A DNA stretch of 13,989 nucleotides from Chloroflexota bacterium (GTDB taxonomy: Bacteria; Chloroflexota; Anaerolineae; Promineifilales; Promineifilaceae). Where the stretch lies: the NCBI GenBank assembly GCA_008501785.1, contig QQUD01000272.1, positions 1 to 13,989 of the forward strand, in the 5' to 3' direction. The notes below the pieces were generated by a model. The model saw only the letters and a list, made by a program, of their open reading frames with translations. It did no database searches and was not told the DNA's origin. Position numbers and translations under genes: made by a program. This document shows, one piece after another, positions 3,613-13,848 of this stretch. Position 1 is the first letter of the stretch. The number at the start of each line of letters is the position of its first letter.

Positions 3613-4578
3613 ATGGAATATCGACGTTTAGGAAGAACTGGACTCAAGGTATCGACGATTTGTTTAGGCACGATGCAGTTTGGCTGGTCGTCGGATACAT
3701 TAACAGGGCATGACATTATGAGTCGTGCCGTCGAGTTGGGCTGCAATTTTATTGATACGGCCGATATTTACTCCCGCTGGGTAGAGGGCAATAATGGCGG
3801 TGTGAGTGAAGAGATCATTGGTGAGTGGCTGCAGAAAAGCGGAATTCGGCGTGAAGACCTCATTTTGGCAACCAAAGTGCGCGGCCAGATGGGAGATGGG
3901 CCGAATGATGAAGGACTTTCGCGTCAGCATATTCTCAATGGTGTTGAAGCCAGTTTGGAACGTTTGCAAACGGATTATATCGATTTGTATCAAGTCCATT
4001 GGCCGGATGAAGAAACGCCGCTGGCTGAGACATTAACCGTCCTCAACGACTTGGTGCGTGCTGGCACGGTGCGCTACATTGGCTGCTCAAATTATCCAGC
4101 GTGGTTGTTAACCAAATCACTGTGGGTGAGCGATGTGAAAAATTTGGTACGGTTTGACAGCTTGCAGCCGCATTACAGTTTGGTCCATCGTGCCGAATTC
4201 GAGCGTGAACTGCAACCGCTTTGCCTGGATCAGGGTATTGGCGTAATTCCTTACAGCCCGTTAGCGGCTGGCTTTTTAACGGGTAAATATCGTCGCGATA
4301 CGCCGCTGCCTGAATCAGCCCGCGCCGATGGCGTGCGCAATCGGTACATGAATGAGCAAGGGTTTACGGTCGTTGACAAACTCGAAGAAATTGGCAAGGC
4401 GCACAATGCCACGATTGCGCAAACTGCGATTGCGTGGGTGCTGGCGAATACGGCCGTTTCCTCTGCCATCATCGGGGCTAACTCCATCGCCCAGCTTGAA
4501 GACACAATCAAAGGGACTGAGGTCAAGTTAACGCAAGAAGAAAAAGAAGCGTTGGATGCGACGACTGCTTGGAAGTAG
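3613..4578 (+). CDS. Aldo/keto reductase
   Basis: 321 residues, cytosolic NAD(P)H-dependent oxidoreductase of the aldo/keto reductase superfamily (TIM barrel), reducing aldehydes or ketones; the substrate is not predictable. It opens with the typical MEYRRLGRTGLKVS strand. The catalytic tetrad is complete: Asp48 and Tyr53 (FIDTADIY), Lys88 (LATKVRG) and His129 (YQVHWPD). The C-terminal cofactor-binding region (SSAIIGANSIAQLED) is present. The start is ATG 3613, with AAGGAG at 3599-3604 eight bases ahead. A GTG at 3541 in the same frame is rejected because it lies inside the inverted repeat and would add a nonsense-looking 24-residue extension. It could be co-transcribed with the genes on either side, but spacers with palindromes separate it from both. 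Confidence 0.92.
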   Translation: MEYRRLGRTGLKVSTICLGTMQFGWSSDTLTGHDIMSRAVELGCNFIDTADIYSRWVEGNNGGVSEEIIGEWLQKSGIRREDLILATKVRGQMGDGPNDEGLSRQHILNGVEASLERLQTDYIDLYQVHWPDEETPLAETLTVLNDLVRAGTVRYIGCSNYPAWLLTKSLWVSDVKNLVRFDSLQPHYSLVHRAEFERELQPLCLDQGIGVIPYSPLAAGFLTGKYRRDTPLPESARADGVRNRYMNEQGFTVVDKLEEIGKAHNATIAQTAIAWVLANTAVSSAIIGANSIAQLEDTIKGTEVKLTQEEKEALDATTAWK

Positions 4579-4593
4579 GAAGAGGGAGAAGAG

Positions 4594-4679
4594 AATAATT
4601 AATTTGTGAATTGTTGAATTTGTGAATTGTTAATGACTGGAGCCGCAGACTCTTTCTAACAATTCAACAATTAATTATT
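4594..4679. repeat. AT-rich inverted repeat with internal tandem repeat
   Basis: Between the reductase and the decarboxylase. Outer arms AATAATTAATT (4594-4604) and its complement (4669-4679) enclose inner arms GAATTGTTA (4624-4632) and TAACAATTC (4657-4665). The left side also carries a 16-bp unit twice in tandem (4601-4616 and 4617-4632, one difference), which looks like a duplication that lengthened the left arm by 19 bases. The loop is 4633-4656. It is AT-rich without a GC stem, so it is a poor fit to an intrinsic terminator. The 10-mer TGAATTGTTA (4623-4632) recurs at 13191-13200 in another repeat-rich spacer. Confidence 0.7.
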
Positions 4680-4718
4680 TTCCGATTAGCAATTACCCAT
4701 ATGCCAAAGAGGAAAATA

Positions 4719-6166: not shown

Positions 6167-6227
6167 ATTTTCCCGGAAGCTGGGAGAGGCTTTTGTTTAA
6201 GTTGTTCGTGCTAGCTTCCGGGAAAAT
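6167..6227. repeat. 15-bp perfect inverted repeat between convergent genes
   Basis: Arms 6167-6181 (ATTTTCCCGGAAGCT) and 6213-6227 are exact complements with a 31-base loop. It sits 8 bases after the decarboxylase stop, and the right arm contains the last codons and stop of the kinase gene (stop at 6211-6213). On both strands the T-run is at the 5' side of the stem and the A-run at the 3' side, opposite to a Rho-independent terminator. It could still slow or end transcription from both sides, but it is described here as an extragenic palindrome. Confidence 0.8.
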
Positions 6228-8451
6228 TAGCGGTTTCAACTTTTTGCATGGTTCCATTTTTTTGATGTGGAACTGAATTTAATGCCGCAGTCAACACTTC
6301 AATGGTTGCAGGCTTGCTGACGAAATCATTCATGCCTGCATCACGGCACATTTTGATGGCGTCATCAATGACATCTGCGGTCATCGCGATAATCCAAGGT
6401 TGTGCTGCATCATTGGTCATCACACGAATCTGGCGCGTGGCTTCCAAACCATCCATTACCGGCATATGCACATCCATAAGAATGACATCATACGTTTGGC
6501 GCTTGATTGCATCAACGGCTTCTTCCCCATTTGAAGCGACATCAGCTTGATAACCCAATCGATCTAACATGCGGGTGGCGACTTTTTGGTTGATGGCATT
6601 ATCTTCGGCAACTAGGATGCGCAAAGACGGCCGTTGTATATCACGAGCGGAGTCAGGTTTCGGTTCTTTTACAGAAAGCGCTATCGGTTGTGGTCCATTG
6701 AAAATTTGGCACAATATGCGTAATAATTGGTCTTTTTTGACTGGTTTATACAGCCAATAATCCACAAATTCTCGATGTTTCTTGTCTACTTCAGCAGCAC
6801 TGCTCAAAATAACGATTGGCAGGTTTGGATTGGTGCTGGTTAACGCTTTTGCCAACATGCCGCCATCCATCTCTGGCATGTTGAAGTCCAATAAGGCGAC
6901 ATCAAATTGAGAACCCATTTCGATAGCCGACAATGCATCCGGGCCAGATTCAAATGATTCTGACTGCATGCCCCAATGGTCTACGATGCGTGAAAGAATG
7001 TCGCGATTTGTGGCGTTATCATCAACAATCAAAGCTTTCTTTTTAGCTAATTCAGATTGATTGATCAATATTTTTGCTTTTTCGGGTAATGGGGTTGATT
7101 CTGCCAATATCGTAAATGAGAAGGTAGACCCGTTTCCTGCATCACTTTCCACCCAAATATTGCCACCCATCAATTCACAAAGCCGTTTGCAAATCACTAG
7201 CCCCAGACCTGTCCCCCCAAACTTTCGCGTTGTCGATGCATCAACCTGGCTAAATGGTTTGAAAAGACGATCGATTTTCTCCTGTGGAATACCTATCCCG
7301 GTATCATGCACTGAAATTTTGATTTGATGTTGATTTGATTTGAGCAGTTGGCTGCTGACACGGACGACAACTTCGCCTTTTTCTGTAAACTTAACCGCAT
7401 TTGACAATAAATTTACCAGCACCTGCCGCAATCGGGTTGAATCTGAGATGATGCCACGCGGCACACTTTTTTCAAAGGTGCAGGCCAACTCAAGCCCCTT
7501 TTTGGCAGATTGAAGAGAAAGCAGGTCCATCGCGCTTTCAATACAATGATGCAAGTCAAATGGATGATTTTCTAATTCTAACTGACCTGCTTCGATCTTG
7601 GAGAAATCAAGGATGTCATTAATGATGGTCAGCAATGAATCACCACTTGTCCGAATCACATCTACGAAGTTGTGCTGATCATTATCCAAACTTGTTTCTA
7701 AGAGCAGGCTGGTCATGCCAATCACACCATTCATAGGGGTGCGAATCTCATGACTCATCGAGGCTAGAAATTGACTTTTGGCGATGGTGGCTGTTTCTGC
7801 GACTTTTTTTGCCTCGTCCAAATCCTTGTTCATTGTTTTTAACAATTTATTGACATGTCGCAGTTCTTCTTTGGTTGCAAACAACTCATCTCGGCGAAAA
7901 CGCGCCTTTAGGTAAAGCTTGCTGATTGATTCAAGAGCAAAATGCCATTCGTGAAGTGCGACATTGGCAACAAGTGCAAACATGAAATTCAGCCCAATGG
8001 GTGCCAAAAGGAATTTTATGTCTGCCGCAGAATTTGATTCAATTGCTAATATAGACCCAATCATGAGGAATGTGGAAATGCCCCATACACGAATGCCGGC
8101 AGCAGGTTCCACTATCAGACTGCTGATTATGATGATGACACCAAAGATATAGGGGAGAAAACTGCCAGGTACCCAGGCATGGACCATAAAAAACGCAAAC
8201 AGCAATTCATGTGAGACCAGGAAAAGATGGATACCTGCAAAATAATGTTCACGTTCGATTAATTTCCAGGCAATTCTGGAAAATATTGGTGAATATAGTA
8301 TTGCAAACCAGAAGAAGAGTGAATTCCAATCCTTTCCAAAAATAGGGGAAATTGAAAATACAATCATTAAACAAATTGAAATGGAAATTACCGGGATGGC
8401 GACTCTTGCACTATCTGCACTTAATTGTTGCGAATATGATTGTTTCTCCAT
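6211..8451 (-). CDS. Hybrid sensor histidine kinase with two receiver domains (copy 1)
   Basis: 746 residues. About six hydrophobic segments lie between residues 16 and 165 (membrane sensor without recognisable ligand-binding or PAS domain), then a coiled-coil linker (about 185-222). The HisKA domain has phospho-acceptor His234 (SMSHEIRTP). The HATPase has an N-box at about 343-355 (Asn347, Asn351), DTGIGI, FKPFSQ and GGTGLGL. REC1 (about 471-587) has acceptor Asp522 and Lys in YKP; REC2 (about 610-728) has acceptor Asp660 and Lys in SKP. No HPt domain is present, so phosphate must pass to an HPt or regulator encoded elsewhere. Codons 274-664 are identical at the DNA level with the neighbouring copy, whereas the sensor half is only distantly similar. 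The tail (residues after KNGTMQKV) is unique and runs into an inverted repeat. No clear Shine-Dalgarno is seen before ATG 8451. Confidence 0.95.
6250..7632 (-). repeat. Near-identical duplicated segment, copy 1 (with 8716-10098)
   Basis: 1383 bp aligned without gaps to 8716-10098 (offset 2466). By eye there are eight differences, all near the left end: 6367, 6369, 6370, 6376, 6379, 6385, 6454 and 6459. From 6460 to 7632 (1173 bp) I found none. Beyond 7632 similarity falls abruptly to what I judge to be about three quarters. Confidence 0.9.
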
Positions 8452-8673: not shown

Positions 8674-10917
8674 CTATTTAGCCTTATTCATTGGCATGGA
8701 AACAACCTTTTGCAAGGTTCCATTTTTTTGATGTGGAACTGAATTTAATGCCGCAGTCAACACTTCAATGGTTGCAGGCTTGCTGACGAAATCATTCATG
8801 CCTGCATCACGGCACATTTTGATGGCGTCATCCAAAACATCAGCAGTCATAGCGATAATCCAAGGTTGTGCTGCATCATTGGTCATCACACGAATCTGGC
8901 GCGTGGCTTCCAAACCATCTATTATCGGCATATGCACATCCATAAGAATGACATCATACGTTTGGCGCTTGATTGCATCAACGGCTTCTTCCCCATTTGA
9001 AGCGACATCAGCTTGATAACCCAATCGATCTAACATGCGGGTGGCGACTTTTTGGTTGATGGCATTATCTTCGGCAACTAGGATGCGCAAAGACGGCCGT
9101 TGTATATCACGAGCGGAGTCAGGTTTCGGTTCTTTTACAGAAAGCGCTATCGGTTGTGGTCCATTGAAAATTTGGCACAATATGCGTAATAATTGGTCTT
9201 TTTTGACTGGTTTATACAGCCAATAATCCACAAATTCTCGATGTTTCTTGTCTACTTCAGCAGCACTGCTCAAAATAACGATTGGCAGGTTTGGATTGGT
9301 GCTGGTTAACGCTTTTGCCAACATGCCGCCATCCATCTCTGGCATGTTGAAGTCCAATAAGGCGACATCAAATTGAGAACCCATTTCGATAGCCGACAAT
9401 GCATCCGGGCCAGATTCAAATGATTCTGACTGCATGCCCCAATGGTCTACGATGCGTGAAAGAATGTCGCGATTTGTGGCGTTATCATCAACAATCAAAG
9501 CTTTCTTTTTAGCTAATTCAGATTGATTGATCAATATTTTTGCTTTTTCGGGTAATGGGGTTGATTCTGCCAATATCGTAAATGAGAAGGTAGACCCGTT
9601 TCCTGCATCACTTTCCACCCAAATATTGCCACCCATCAATTCACAAAGCCGTTTGCAAATCACTAGCCCCAGACCTGTCCCCCCAAACTTTCGCGTTGTC
9701 GATGCATCAACCTGGCTAAATGGTTTGAAAAGACGATCGATTTTCTCCTGTGGAATACCTATCCCGGTATCATGCACTGAAATTTTGATTTGATGTTGAT
9801 TTGATTTGAGCAGTTGGCTGCTGACACGGACGACAACTTCGCCTTTTTCTGTAAACTTAACCGCATTTGACAATAAATTTACCAGCACCTGCCGCAATCG
9901 GGTTGAATCTGAGATGATGCCACGCGGCACACTTTTTTCAAAGGTGCAGGCCAACTCAAGCCCCTTTTTGGCAGATTGAAGAGAAAGCAGGTCCATCGCG
10001 CTTTCAATACAATGATGCAAGTCAAATGGATGATTTTCTAATTCTAACTGACCTGCTTCGATCTTGGAGAAATCAAGGATGTCATTAATGATGGTCAGTA
10101 ATGATTCGCCACTTGAACGAATGACCTCAACGAAATTGTGATGCTCTTGATCCAATTCAGCTTCCATGAGCAGGCTGGTCATGCCAATCACGCCATTCAT
10201 GGGCGTGCGAATTTCGTGGCTCATTGAGGCCAGAAATTGGCTTTTGGCGACTGTAGCAGCTTCGGCGGCCTCTTTAGCTTTCGCTAATTCCTCGTTCACA
10301 TTTTTCAACAATTTGTTTGCGTGATGCAGCTCCTCTTTTGTGGCATATAATTCATCCCGACGAAAACGCGCTTTACTGTAAAGCGTGCTAATTGATTCAG
10401 CTGCAAAATGCCATTCGTTAAATGCAGCATATGTAATCCCAGCCAATAGAAGGTTAATAATAAACGGGGCTATCAATGCTTTTAAATCAGCAATAATAAA
10501 CCCATCTTTGGTGATAACTGCACCAATTGTAATTAGGCCTGAGATGGCCCACACATGAAAACTAGTGTATGGAAGCAACAACATGCTGCTGATGACAATC
10601 AAAATGCTAAAAAGATAGGGATGAAAGCTTACCTGAGGCCATGATTGCTGGATGAAGTATGCAATGATTAGCTCATTGATTCCCAGGAATAGTTGTACAC
10701 CAAAATAAAAGTGATCGCGTTTTATTAATTGCCAAGAAAAGATGGAAAGTGGCAGCCAAAGAATGAGAAGAAACCGAAATATCGAAGATCCCCAATCTTG
10801 GTCAAATGCATAAAACAAAGTCAGGATATTAACCAATGCAGTTAGAGAAATTATTATCGGAATTACTACTTTTCCACTATCAGAGTTTAATTGTTGTATA
10901 TAGGATCTCTTCCTCAT
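8674..10917 (-). CDS. Hybrid sensor histidine kinase with two receiver domains (copy 2)
   Basis: 747 residues from ATG 10917, with the same domain order as copy 1: six-helix membrane sensor (about 16-165), coiled-coil linker, HisKA with His234, HATPase, REC1 with Asp522, REC2 with Asp660. Starting at the ATG rather than the TTG three bases earlier makes all these residues fall at the same numbers as in copy 1 and aligns the N-termini ([10 protein letters not shown] against [10 protein letters not shown]). In the shared part only three residues differ in REC2 (HMPII for HMPVM, and ADVL for ADVI). The sensor helices differ widely, so the two kinases probably respond to different membrane signals while sharing catalytic and receiver surfaces. 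It lies 65 bases downstream of the SUMF1-like gene on the same strand and could belong to its transcript. No clear ribosome site is visible. Confidence 0.95.
8716..10098 (-). repeat. Near-identical duplicated segment, copy 2 (with 6250-7632)
   Basis: Partner of the segment in copy 1. The uninterrupted identical tract is 8926-10098. It ends at codon 274, within the second helix of the DHp domain, and at codon 664, just after the phospho-acceptor loop of REC2. Confidence 0.9.
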
Positions 10918-10982
10918 CAACTAATGATAAGAAGCTAGTTGTAATTTATGTATGACTATGAAGTACTGATTAAACTTTTGTA
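10918..10982. other. Short spacer with 6-bp inverted repeat before kinase copy 2
   Basis: 65 bases between the SUMF1-like stop and kinase copy 2. CAACTA (10918-10923) and TAGTTG (10936-10941) form an inverted repeat with a 12-base spacer, directly before the start codon in transcription sense. It may be a regulator site or chance; nothing else stands out. Confidence 0.35.
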
Positions 10983-11798
10983 CTATTTTGACAGGGACAT
11001 AGCCACGCGAAACCCGATAAAGTCATCTGCTTCAGCCGCAATGAACCGGATGCGGGTGGCACTGCGGGCGGCATCGGGGGTGTCGTGCCAGGAGCCGCCG
11101 CGAATGATGCTGTAGGGGGTGGGGTGGGATGCTGCCCAAACACGGCCGTTTCTCGGCGCACCCTCATAATTTTTGTGCCAGGGGTCTGCACACCATTCCA
11201 ATACATTGCCGTGCATGTCAAACAGCCCAAATGCGTTAGGCGGAAAGCTCCCCACGTTGGTTGGCACGTGGCGATAAATACCTTTGGGAGCCTGCCCATA
11301 AACAAATTCACCCTGGAAATTGACAAATTCAGTGGTGATTGTTTCGCCAAAATAAAATGGCGTGGTGGTTCCGGCACGACACGCAAACTCCCACTGCGCT
11401 TCGCTGGGCAGGTAGAATTCGTTGCTTGTGTGATCGGTGAGCAGTTGACAATAAGCTTGAGCGTCGAGCCAATTGACATTGTCAATCGGCAAATTGGGAC
11501 CTTTGAACCGGGATGGATGATCATCCACGCCCATTACAGCTTTCCATTGAGCCTGCGTGATTGGATAAATGCCCATCCAAAATGGGTCGATGGTGACGGG
11601 GTGATACGGCCGTTCATCATCATGCCCGACACCAGGAGGCGACCCCATCATAAATTCACCACCTGGAATGGCAACTAGTTTTAGGGATATATCATTATTT
11701 AACGGAACCGTGAGCTGTTCTGCTGTGTGTGTTGATCGACCAATTATCTCTCCAAACTGGTTGAGCTGCACCGTTTCAAACTGAATTTTGTTCCTCAT
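10983..11798 (-). CDS. SUMF1/FGE-like domain protein lacking the catalytic cysteines
   Basis: 271 residues. After a short N-terminal strand region (about 1-38) the FGE-sulfatase (SUMF1) domain fills the protein: VAIPGGEFMMGS, PVTIDPFWMGIYPITQAQW, YLPSEAQWEFACRAG, FGLFDMHGNVLEWCAD, IRGGSW and a terminal GFRVAM. True formylglycine-generating enzymes have two cysteines shortly after the GGS-aromatic motif (human Cys336 and Cys341). Here those places are Asp239 and Ala244, so copper-dependent sulfatase activation is unlikely; the fold is often reused as a binding or accessory module. No sulfatase is in the window. No signal peptide is seen. Its start overlaps the radical SAM gene by 23 bases and has AGAGGA (11805-11810, - strand) six bases ahead, so the two are translated from one mRNA and probably work in one process. 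Confidence 0.9.
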   Translation of the reverse strand: MRNKIQFETVQLNQFGEIIGRSTHTAEQLTVPLNNDISLKLVAIPGGEFMMGSPPGVGHDDERPYHPVTIDPFWMGIYPITQAQWKAVMGVDDHPSRFKGPNLPIDNVNWLDAQAYCQLLTDHTSNEFYLPSEAQWEFACRAGTTTPFYFGETITTEFVNFQGEFVYGQAPKGIYRHVPTNVGSFPPNAFGLFDMHGNVLEWCADPWHKNYEGAPRNGRVWAASHPTPYSIIRGGSWHDTPDAARSATRIRFIAAEADDFIGFRVAMSLSK

Positions 11799-12909
11799 CT
11801 AAAATCCTCTGAATCCGTTTTAGGATGTTGCCTCTCACATTTTTGATGGTAGCAAGTTCCCCCCGTGCCGCAATAGCTTCGATGGCTTCAGGCAGCAGTT
11901 GAACATTTTGCCCTGCCCAAAATAAGGTTTCATAACTTTGCCCAAACATTTGCCGCTGGTAAGAGGCATTAAGCATGCGTTCGGCGATTTTGTAGTTGGT
12001 TTTGCGATAATCGTTGGGGATGTAGCGTTTGATGCGGTAGGGAAGATTATGTTTTTCGCAGAGTTCCGTCAGCATTTTATGTTTGGTGATCATGTAGTCG
12101 CCGGTTGGAACATAGCTGCCGTCGTAGGTTTCTGATGTTTCTGTAAATTTGTACAGTTTTGCATATTTTGTCACTAGTTCAGGGTAAGTGACACGTAAAT
12201 GTTTGAGAAACCAATCTGCTTGTAAGTTGCGCAGTGTCATTGCGCCGCCAAACATGAGATAGTCGGCGTTGGATTGGGAAACGGCCGTTATCAACTCCTC
12301 AACTCCCACTTCATCATCGCTCAAAAACGGCACCAATGGCATCAACAGCACGCCGGTTTGCACTTCCGGTGCTTTTTCTTTGATTTGGCGCAGCGTGTCC
12401 AGCCGTTTTGCTGGCGAAGGCGCATGATTGTCCAAAAACTTTGCCATTTTTGGGTCGATGGTTGTGATTGTGAACGAGACTGTACACCATGTTTGTGCGG
12501 CAATTTCGGCCAGCAAATCCAAATCGCGCAGCACCAGTGTTGATTTGGTAATGATGTGAACCGGGTATTGATGTTTGGCCAAGACTTTTAGAATGTTGCG
12601 CGTATTTTCATACTTTTTCTCAGCGGGTTGGTAACTATCTGTCACCCCGCCAATGCCAACAACGTCTGGCTGAAATGTGCGAGCGCGAGTGATACGCTGA
12701 TCGAGCATCGTGTCCACATTGGTTTTGATCATGATTTCGTTGTGGAAATCTTCGGGCATGTGGTAATGCTCGCTGCGTGAATCGCAGTAGATGCAGCCAA
12801 ACTGACAGCCGTTGTACGGATTGATGCCGTACCGCGTCCAAAACCAATGGTCGATATATTTGCGCTTGTTGATGATCGATTTGTATTGTTTTTCGATAAA
12901 TTTAACCAT
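11776..12909 (-). CDS. Radical SAM protein, SplB-like family
   Basis: 377 residues. The cluster motif is C35-x3-C39-x2-C42 within NPYNGCQFGCIYCD, which binds the [4Fe-4S] cluster that cleaves S-adenosylmethionine. The following blocks (GIGGVTDSYQPAEKKYENTR, VHIITKSTL, VSFTITTIDPKMA, TGVLLMPLVPFLSDDE) match the spore photoproduct lyase-like group (COG1533). Most members of that group in non-spore-formers have no known reaction, so spore photoproduct lyase activity should not be assumed. There is no SPASM-type Cys-rich C-terminus, so it is not an anaerobic sulfatase-maturating enzyme. A TAA lies in frame two codons before ATG 12909, limiting the start; no strong ribosome site is seen. It overlaps the SUMF1-like gene downstream. 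Upstream is the repeat-rich spacer 12910-13197. Confidence 0.9.
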   Translation of the reverse strand: MVKFIEKQYKSIINKRKYIDHWFWTRYGINPYNGCQFGCIYCDSRSEHYHMPEDFHNEIMIKTNVDTMLDQRITRARTFQPDVVGIGGVTDSYQPAEKKYENTRNILKVLAKHQYPVHIITKSTLVLRDLDLLAEIAAQTWCTVSFTITTIDPKMAKFLDNHAPSPAKRLDTLRQIKEKAPEVQTGVLLMPLVPFLSDDEVGVEELITAVSQSNADYLMFGGAMTLRNLQADWFLKHLRVTYPELVTKYAKLYKFTETSETYDGSYVPTGDYMITKHKMLTELCEKHNLPYRIKRYIPNDYRKTNYKIAERMLNASYQRQMFGQSYETLFWAGQNVQLLPEAIEAIAARGELATIKNVRGNILKRIQRILDEEQNSV

Positions 12910-13031
12910 ATTTAAGAATTGGCGGCGTTGCCGGTGAAGGTGTGTATGGCGTTGATGCTGCTTTTTTATTTAAAAACGGCCGTATTTTAACGTAAGCCTA
13001 TCAATCCAATTATGTTTCATAATAAGCTAGT
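12910..13031. other. Upstream region of the radical SAM gene
   Basis: 122 bases with no gene. It contains an ACGGCCGT octamer (12976-12983) flanked by A and T runs. On the - strand, TAAAAT just upstream of the octamer could be a -10 element, but no convincing -35 partner is seen. Confidence 0.4.
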
Positions 13032-13134
13032 ACTGAAGCAAACATCTTTTGACGGGTAGAATTGTCGCAAATTGCTTCAGTTTAAGTGTTCCGACTTGAC
13101 TGTTTACCCGTCAAAATTTGTTTGTCGGAACACT
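13032..13134. repeat. Two adjacent hairpins with complementary loops
   Basis: Hairpin 1: arms 13032-13041 (ACTGAAGCAA) and 13072-13081. Hairpin 2: arms 13085-13095 (AGTGTTCCGAC) and 13124-13134. Both span exactly 50 bases. A 12-base block in loop 1 (TTTTGACGGGTA, 13047-13058) is the exact complement of 13105-13116 in loop 2. All three pairings are perfect (10, 11 and 12 bp) and give the interleaved order A-B-A'-C-B'-C', a kissing-hairpin topology. It may be a structured RNA, a mobile-element end or a scar of repeat insertions; the function is unknown. Confidence 0.75.
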
Positions 13135-13135
13135 A

Positions 13136-13197
13136 GTCAGCTAGTCAGCAATTCAGCCTATAAAGCTGACTAGCTGACCTGCTGACCTGCTGAATTG
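13136..13197. repeat. Third hairpin with pseudoknot partner and 8-bp tandem repeats
   Basis: Arms 13136-13149 (GTCAGCTAGTCAGC) and 13165-13178 are exact 14-bp complements with a 15-base loop. The loop segment 13149-13157 (CAATTCAGC) is the complement of 13189-13197, outside the stem, giving a pseudoknot order D-E-D'-E'. Tandem GCTGACCT units occupy 13173-13188, followed by GCTGAATT. The block ends at the base before the nitroreductase stop codon, so it would form the 3' end of that transcript. Confidence 0.75.
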
Positions 13198-13848
13198 TTA
13201 TTTTTGCCACTGTTCCCAGGATGTTACTTCGGTTGCTGGCATGCGTTTGGCAGGTTTGAAATCGTCGCCTAAAAAGTAGGCAATGGGCAATAATGCAGCC
13301 TGTGTTAAATGCGGTGGAATGCCCAGCAGTTCTGCAATTTCAGGTTCGTAGCGTAGATGCAGTGAAGTCCAGGCTGCACCCAATCCACGTGCCCGCAGTG
13401 CCAGCATCAACGACCATGTTGCTGGCAAAATGGAGCCATACAGCCCAGCCTGGTTCATTGGGGATCCATGTTCTGCACGTCCTTCAATACATGGAATAAT
13501 CATCACTGGTACGCGATGCATATTGTTTGCCAAATAAACGGCCGAATTCACCACACGCATCATTTGTGAATCAGGTTGGGTTGGCGCATCTGATTGGGAT
13601 GCTTCCTCTTGTCCTGCGCGTGCATAGATAAAAAATGACTTTTTATACAGCTTGCCAATTTTGGCACGTTTTACTGCATCTGTGATAACCAAGAAGTGCC
13701 AACCTTGCGCATTGCTGCCGGTTGGTGCCTGAATGGCAATGTTTAGGCATTCTTCAATGACAGTGCGTGGCACAGGTCTATCCAGATCAAGTCGTTTGCG
13801 TACGGTGCGAGTGGTGGTGAGTAGTTTGTCAACGGTTGCCAGGTCCAT
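13198..13848 (-). CDS. Nitroreductase family FMN-dependent oxidoreductase
   Basis: 216 residues, within the usual range for the nitroreductase superfamily of homodimeric FMN enzymes using NAD(P)H. The first FMN contact region TRTVRKR (13-19) and the second, APTGSNAQGWHF (41-52), are both present, as are RARGLGAAWTS and the final LLGIPPHL...IAYFLGD...W region. Physiological substrates vary across the family (quinones, flavins, nitroaromatics, iodotyrosine), and none can be assigned. The start is ATG 13848, with AGGAG on the - strand at 13855-13859 six bases ahead; an upstream ATG at 13893 would add 15 residues that do not resemble the family. It is separated from the radical SAM gene by 288 bases full of inverted repeats, so it is probably a separate unit. 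Confidence 0.92.
   Translation of the reverse strand: MDLATVDKLLTTTRTVRKRLDLDRPVPRTVIEECLNIAIQAPTGSNAQGWHFLVITDAVKRAKIGKLYKKSFFIYARAGQEEASQSDAPTQPDSQMMRVVNSAVYLANNMHRVPVMIIPCIEGRAEHGSPMNQAGLYGSILPATWSLMLALRARGLGAAWTSLHLRYEPEIAELLGIPPHLTQAALLPIAYFLGDDFKPAKRMPATEVTSWEQWQK

Follow-up and report, generated by a model that had tools for sequence, protein, structure and literature searches.

A probable REPIN/MITE-type palindromic element stacked with an inverted octamer array in an intergenic region of a probable Chloroflexota genome

Cyanobacterial repeats of the STRR type are intergenic short tandem repeats with units of 7-8 nt. Palindromic repeats of the REP class are described in passages of PMC3733652 as head-to-head dimers that can form either two separate folds or a single large structure and whose partners may have different stems. 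The same passages also place REP elements or dimers inside palindromes in some species, including dimers in Anabaena variabilis and elements in Thermomicrobium roseum. REPINs are defined in PMC3116915, part of which mentions two alternative folds.

Here, we analyze a stretch of 13,989 bases (the window), in which a block of interleaved inverted repeats lies in the gap between a nitroreductase-family gene and a radical SAM gene (Table 1), a location that an earlier note had given correctly. That note treated 13032-13197 as one unit, but the block comprises two neighboring things, and the terminal repeat of the first runs over 13027-13136, slightly past these limits. In our preferred reading, which we consider probable, two intergenic palindromic repeats are stacked, namely a REPIN/MITE-type element and an inverted array of octamers. 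The first would be a small non-autonomous element made of two oppositely oriented copies of one hairpin-forming end, able to fold as two 50-nt hairpins or, via its complementary loops, as one long hairpin. Its spread was probably driven by a transposase that recognizes the ends in trans, and it would adjoin, or have gone into, an inverted 8-nt array of a class common in the lineage. We infer that this element is mobile and has no function as RNA.

Table 1. Features of the intergenic block and its flanking genes (window positions).
Feature	Position	Strand	Details
Whole palindromic element	13027..13136	.	110 bp; bounded by own terminal inverted repeats
Left terminal inverted repeat	13027..13058	+	CTAGT-N7-CAAACA-NN-TTTTGACGGGTA, N7 = ACTGAAG
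Right terminal inverted repeat	13105..13136	-	same pattern, N7 = GTTCCGA
Hairpin 1	13032..13081	+	stem A/A' 10 bp, 30-nt loop
Hairpin 2	13085..13134	-	stem C/C' 11 bp, 28-nt loop; minus-strand reading aligns with hairpin 1
Centre A'-TTA-C	13072..13095	.	inverted copies of both element tips, abutting over 3 bases
Pair A/A'	13032-13041/13072-13081		10 bp, perfect
Pair B/B'	13047-13058/13105-13116		12 bp; B in loop of hairpin 1, B' in loop of hairpin 2
Pair C/C'	13085-13095/13124-13134		11 bp, perfect
Pair D/D'	13136-13149/13165-13178		14 bp, perfect
Pair E/E'	13149-13157/13189-13197		9 bp, perfect
Inverted octamer array (D, E, D', E')	13133..13197	.	TRF period 8 at 13133-13157 and 13164-13193
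Nitroreductase-family gene (PF00881)	13198..13848	-	stop codon touches octamer array
Radical SAM gene (PF04055)	11776..12909	-	next gene, same strand as nitroreductase-family gene

The radical SAM protein matches the fragment P0002 with 100% identity over 87% and P0020 partially (83%), while its best matches otherwise reach about 75% identity. The named ones among these belong to Candidatus Leptofilum (75%) and Ardenticatenaceae (74%), and the window thus probably derives from Chloroflexota. Chloroflexota is named in none of the 80 proteins listed among 117 relatives of this protein, and genome searches with it gave 0/158 at E 1e-80 and 0/400 at E 1e-60; these radical SAM searches thus missed the window's relatives. 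A 16S probe pattern gave 0/79 and 1/386, the one match being an off-target variant. Elsewhere in the window, two adjacent hybrid histidine kinase genes (6211-8451 and 8674-10920) have, by eye, near-identical C-terminal and differing N-terminal parts.

Inverted pairs and predicted folds of the palindromic element

All five perfect pairs described in the earlier note are found at their given positions and above chance, and its observation that the first two hairpins have equal lengths of 50 nt and loops complementary over 12 bases is likewise correct. The 180 bases at 13022-13201 fold with z scores of -7.68 on the plus and -7.64 on the minus strand, and 0/200 shuffles are as good on either strand. 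Moreover, adjacent hairpins whose loops are complementary to each other for 8 or more bases occur once in the window and in none of 150 first-order Markov copies amounting to 2.1 Mb in total.

The terminal inverted repeat that bounds the element is 32 nt long, and both ends match at 23 fixed positions with the same spacing. As the pattern was derived from these two ends, the 0 mismatches there hold by construction; in 200 shuffles, 0 matches occur at up to 3 mismatches. The 'kissing' pair B/B' constitutes the inner part, or core, of this repeat and extends to arms of 20 nt with 90% pairing (13039-13058/13105-13124). The two N7 segments differ at 6/7 positions, and each of them is perfectly complementary to part of the centre, which gives rise to stems A/A' and C/C'. 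Hairpin 1 aligns with hairpin 2 once the latter is reverse-complemented, the units being alike only on opposite strands. A covariance model built from hairpin 2 alone recovers hairpin 1 on the opposite strand with 17.5 bits (E 0.01 within the window, 0.94 in a 1.31-Mb search). The plus strand is predicted to form the long B/B' hairpin and the minus strand two hairpins, and 13027-13136 is thereby a predicted inverted doublet that can fold singly or jointly.

Relatives of the terminal repeat and alternative readings

Relatives sharing the ACGGCCGT signature of the window were selected by means of AACGGCCGTT, of which five of 305 genomes (class inferred as Anaerolineae from GC content and size) carry 2306-3261 copies each. 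In these genomes (G1006, G1036, G1061, G1079, and G1106), 1,542,643 called bases (1.54 Mb) were examined. The aldo-keto reductases of G1106 and the window share 79% identity. One G1106 locus, L283, contains a 24-base match (E 0.010 within the 20 loci searched), which led to a 119-bp stretch with inverted terminal repeats that deviate from the pattern by 6 and 3 mismatches at the 23 fixed positions. With settings fixed only after this match had been seen, it is the sole inverted terminal-repeat pair in 1.54 Mb at up to 8 mismatches per end, with 0 in 6.17 Mb of Markov controls. Perfect pairing of its ends is down to 8 bp (GACAAACA). The L283 locus has no matches to the proteins of the window and different gene neighbors.

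The centre of the L283 stretch is a GTAG-hairpin-hairpin-CTAC doublet that resembles a GTAG-tagged REP dimer; four GTAG...CTAC doublets were found in all, the other three having no terminal repeats evident by eye. Stems A/A' and C/C' and the centre A'-TTA-C are absent from this relative. Its doublet nevertheless consists of two hairpins and a cross-pairing segment overlapping their stems, an arrangement similar to that in the window and to be expected of any head-to-head pair of similar hairpins. A second, weak relative in G1006 (L207, E 0.11) has, by eye, a GTAG...CTAC doublet between degenerate ends and does not pass the inverted terminal-repeat pair test. From one clear and one doubtful relative, the terminal repeat thus appears to recur and the kissing stems do not. 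The search of relatives proposed earlier yields one clear case (n = 1), which keeps the terminal repeat, lacks the pairings A/A' and C/C', and leans toward the refutation of the layout that the note itself had named.

When up to 2 mismatches are allowed, the pattern AAACANNTTTTGACGGGTA matches 65 places in 52/400 genomes (inferred Chloroflexota), all with exactly 2 mismatches and fewer than the reversed-pattern control (about 107, counted by hand). This search is a weak negative, since one L283 end has 3 mismatches and would be missed. Three exact patterns with the terminal-repeat core, a form that would also miss the L283 relative, match 0 viral-contig stretches; shorter terminal-repeat patterns match 11 and 106 viral stretches, and 0 of the 86 loci kept contain two terminal-repeat matches. 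With RayT of E. coli as the query, phmmer gave no match at E 1 among 4042 ORFs (window plus first 100 loci), and neither did tblastn over these 100 loci. We reject a phage element (12980-13135 hits 23 phage records, of which the 20 listed are 19-22-base matches at E 6; the stem-A pattern has a single viral match, L081, with no further likeness in the 301 bases read) and a plasmid element (13022-13201 hits one record, from Pantoea, at 8 places, the best, with E 0.04, covering 29 bases of the array).

The two-hairpin scan detects no case with a loop match of at least 9 bases in 1.30 Mb of the relatives. With at least 8 bases, it returns 12 rows over 1.54 Mb, all of them from three places, two in L276 and a third in L286 that arises through ACGGCCGT. 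Because this looser scan also matches relatives, the window is not alone in having such stacks. L276 of G1106 harbors another interleaved hairpin stack at 3630-3783, made of GTGATCCAACC-type repeats. Further, single-linkage clustering of 397 hairpins in the relatives reveals several dispersed hairpin families (at L190, L251, L254, L265, and others), for example, one with a TTGACAAATTT stem (12 members, 11 of them in G1006) and one with a GTGACAGTCACTT stem (8 in G1079).

Several other readings bear on these observations. It is possible, albeit doubtful, that the element belongs to an undescribed foldback family in ACGGCCGT-rich Anaerolineae, with CTAGT-N7-CAAACA tips, an exchangeable centre (REP doublet or inverted tip copies), switching between one and two hairpins, and preferential insertion at short-repeat arrays.

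We consider it unlikely that the block is a by-product of replication template switching, in which a palindrome hot spot would have given rise to the short inverted copies in the absence of any mobile element. Inverted repeats are frequent relative to one Markov copy in the window (16 versus 0) and, among the first 20 relative loci, in those of G1006 (26 versus 6), G1061 (37 versus 13), G1079 (73 versus 11), and G1106 (50 versus 8), with G1036 at just 9 versus 7 and the ACGGCCGT palindrome left unmasked in these counts. Inverted short arrays of many different units are common, a statement made on counts without a shuffled control, and the centre of the element is made of inverted copies of both tips. 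However, the terminal repeat recurs with its tip and spacing in another genome and another neighborhood, for which a local event offers no explanation. For the array and the centre, template switching, as raised in the earlier note, is still a candidate.

Two complete 50-bp mini-elements with perfect terminal repeats of 10-11 bp, inserted head to head 3 bp apart, would account for the exact 50-nt length of both units and for a centre that looks like two abutting tips. Yet no solo 50-nt unit was detected: when run on the window plus 84 of the first 100 loci, the covariance model R1 recovered nothing but the hairpins of the window itself, and its two matches in 20 further loci are a plain stem without the loop core (20.0 bits, E 0.042) and a match of 13.6 bits (E 1.8). 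We regard this arrangement, too, as unlikely.

A structured RNA, whether regulatory or non-coding, that acts within the nitroreductase/radical SAM transcript and whose hairpins kiss via their loops would agree with the strong folding seen for either strand (z about -7.7), with the two separate hairpins predicted on the minus strand, which is the coding strand of both neighbors, and with two stems that pair perfectly although 6/7 variable stem bases differ between the hairpins; it is nonetheless improbable, as the units are alike only on opposite strands, like DNA inverted repeats, Rfam 15 gives 0 matches in the window at gathering scores, and the L283 relative, with its other neighbors, lacks both stems. 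As L283 keeps the terminal repeat without A/A' and C/C', the layout as a whole is not conserved in it as an RNA fold, and we reject a conserved kissing RNA. An intrinsic terminator is rejected as well, for no T run follows the hairpins by eye.

The octamer array and its junction with the element

Comparable tandem arrays with units of 5-10 nt are contained in 71/785 inverted-repeat clusters from the first 1.30 Mb of relative sequence (a raw count without shuffled control), distributed as 28/249 in G1079, 28/205 in G1106, 11/230 in G1006, 4/56 in G1061, and 0/45 in G1036. Their units vary from site to site. By the same threshold, 1/8 clusters of the window passes, namely the block itself. Interleaved helix pairs, counted without a control, number 57 in G1079, 43 in G1106, 39 in G1006, 3 in G1036, and 2 in G1061. 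A second inverted 8-nt array of the window (TGAATTGT-type) lies at 4591-4682 between the aldo-keto reductase and decarboxylase genes.

Arrays like the one at 13133-13197 are thus common in the lineage. The interleaving reported for the block stands insofar as all pairs exist, but the D-E pseudoknot consists largely of alternative registers, D and E sharing base 13149 and being built from the same octamers. A non-autonomous mobile element, one of the options listed beforehand, is the best-supported reading for A-B-A'-C-B'-C'. Among 71 arrays in the window and in loci of at least 5 kb, 40 lie between tandem genes, 19 inside predicted ORFs, 7 between convergent, and 5 between divergent genes, whereas the background gaps number 293 between tandem, 47 between convergent, and 92 between divergent genes (crude gene calls); from these counts, we reject a tie of the arrays to one gene arrangement.

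The left flank of the element ends in AAGCTAGT and the array resumes with CTAGTCAGCTAGTCAGC, resembling an octamer array that was split with CTAGT duplicated. This split-array fit comprises 10/13 bases, a score equalled nowhere among the window's 13,777 other places; beyond the shared CTAGT, 5/8 flank bases fit the array by our own count. The rejoined flanks fold at -33.5 kcal/mol, a value also reached by 268/2000 real 20-mers, by 216/2000 shuffles of the outer 15 bases, and by 62/2000 shuffles of the full 20 bases of the left flank, so the folding of the empty site is unconvincing as proof of insertion. CTAGT flanks both sides but is just as much the tip in each terminal repeat; instead of a duplicated target site, it may represent the tip of the element itself. 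We regard insertion of 13027-13136 into the octamer array as no more than plausible.

Comparison with known repeat systems

Like the cyanobacterial HIP1, ACGGCCGT is an overrepresented palindrome in the window, with 15 copies in 13,989 bases against 0.16 expected (e.g. at 342, 1450, 2740, and 12976), 13/15 of them inside ORFs. AACGGCCGTT is present in intermediate numbers (83-840) in six more of the 305 genomes. A term search of the main text of PMC4390886 on highly iterated palindromes returned neither CGGCCG nor Chloroflex, and among the open-licence papers searched we found none that links any two of ACGGCCGT, an overrepresented palindrome, and Chloroflexota. Palindrome-rich, Anaerolineae-like genomes could be a place to study REP-like elements and their enzymes beyond the usual groups.

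The array shares with STRR-type repeats its intergenic position and tandem 8-nt units, but here each array precedes its inverted counterpart and the units differ by site. As in MITEs, the element is short and non-coding and has terminal inverted repeats, here of 32 nt. In contrast to MITEs, few copies were found, and exact patterns in viral contigs revealed no autonomous parent; we do not file it as a MITE because the target-site duplication is ambiguous.

From REP repeats, the element differs in its outer tag, which is CTAGT at both feet instead of GTAG or CGTC, and in its loops of 28-30 nt, compared with 2-20 nt for GTAG repeats in Table 1 of PMC3733652. In a scan of the window, no hairpin carries a GTAG tag; the left end contains an internal GTAG (13056-13059) whose counterpart in the right end is GTAA. 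The five relatives yield one clear pair in 1.54 Mb, and in view of this copy-number evidence and the different tag we do not file the element as a REP. It was too strong to say that no named element has this layout, given the REP dimers and REPINs described in parts of PMC3733652 and PMC3116915. With GTAG- or CGTC-tagged REP doublets and REPINs, as passages of PMC3733652 portray them, the element has in common opposed hairpin units, a length of about 110 bp, an intergenic position, and a predicted single or joint fold. A seemingly unique kissing-hairpin layout can thus arise from a head-to-head repeat dimer together with an inverted short-repeat array.
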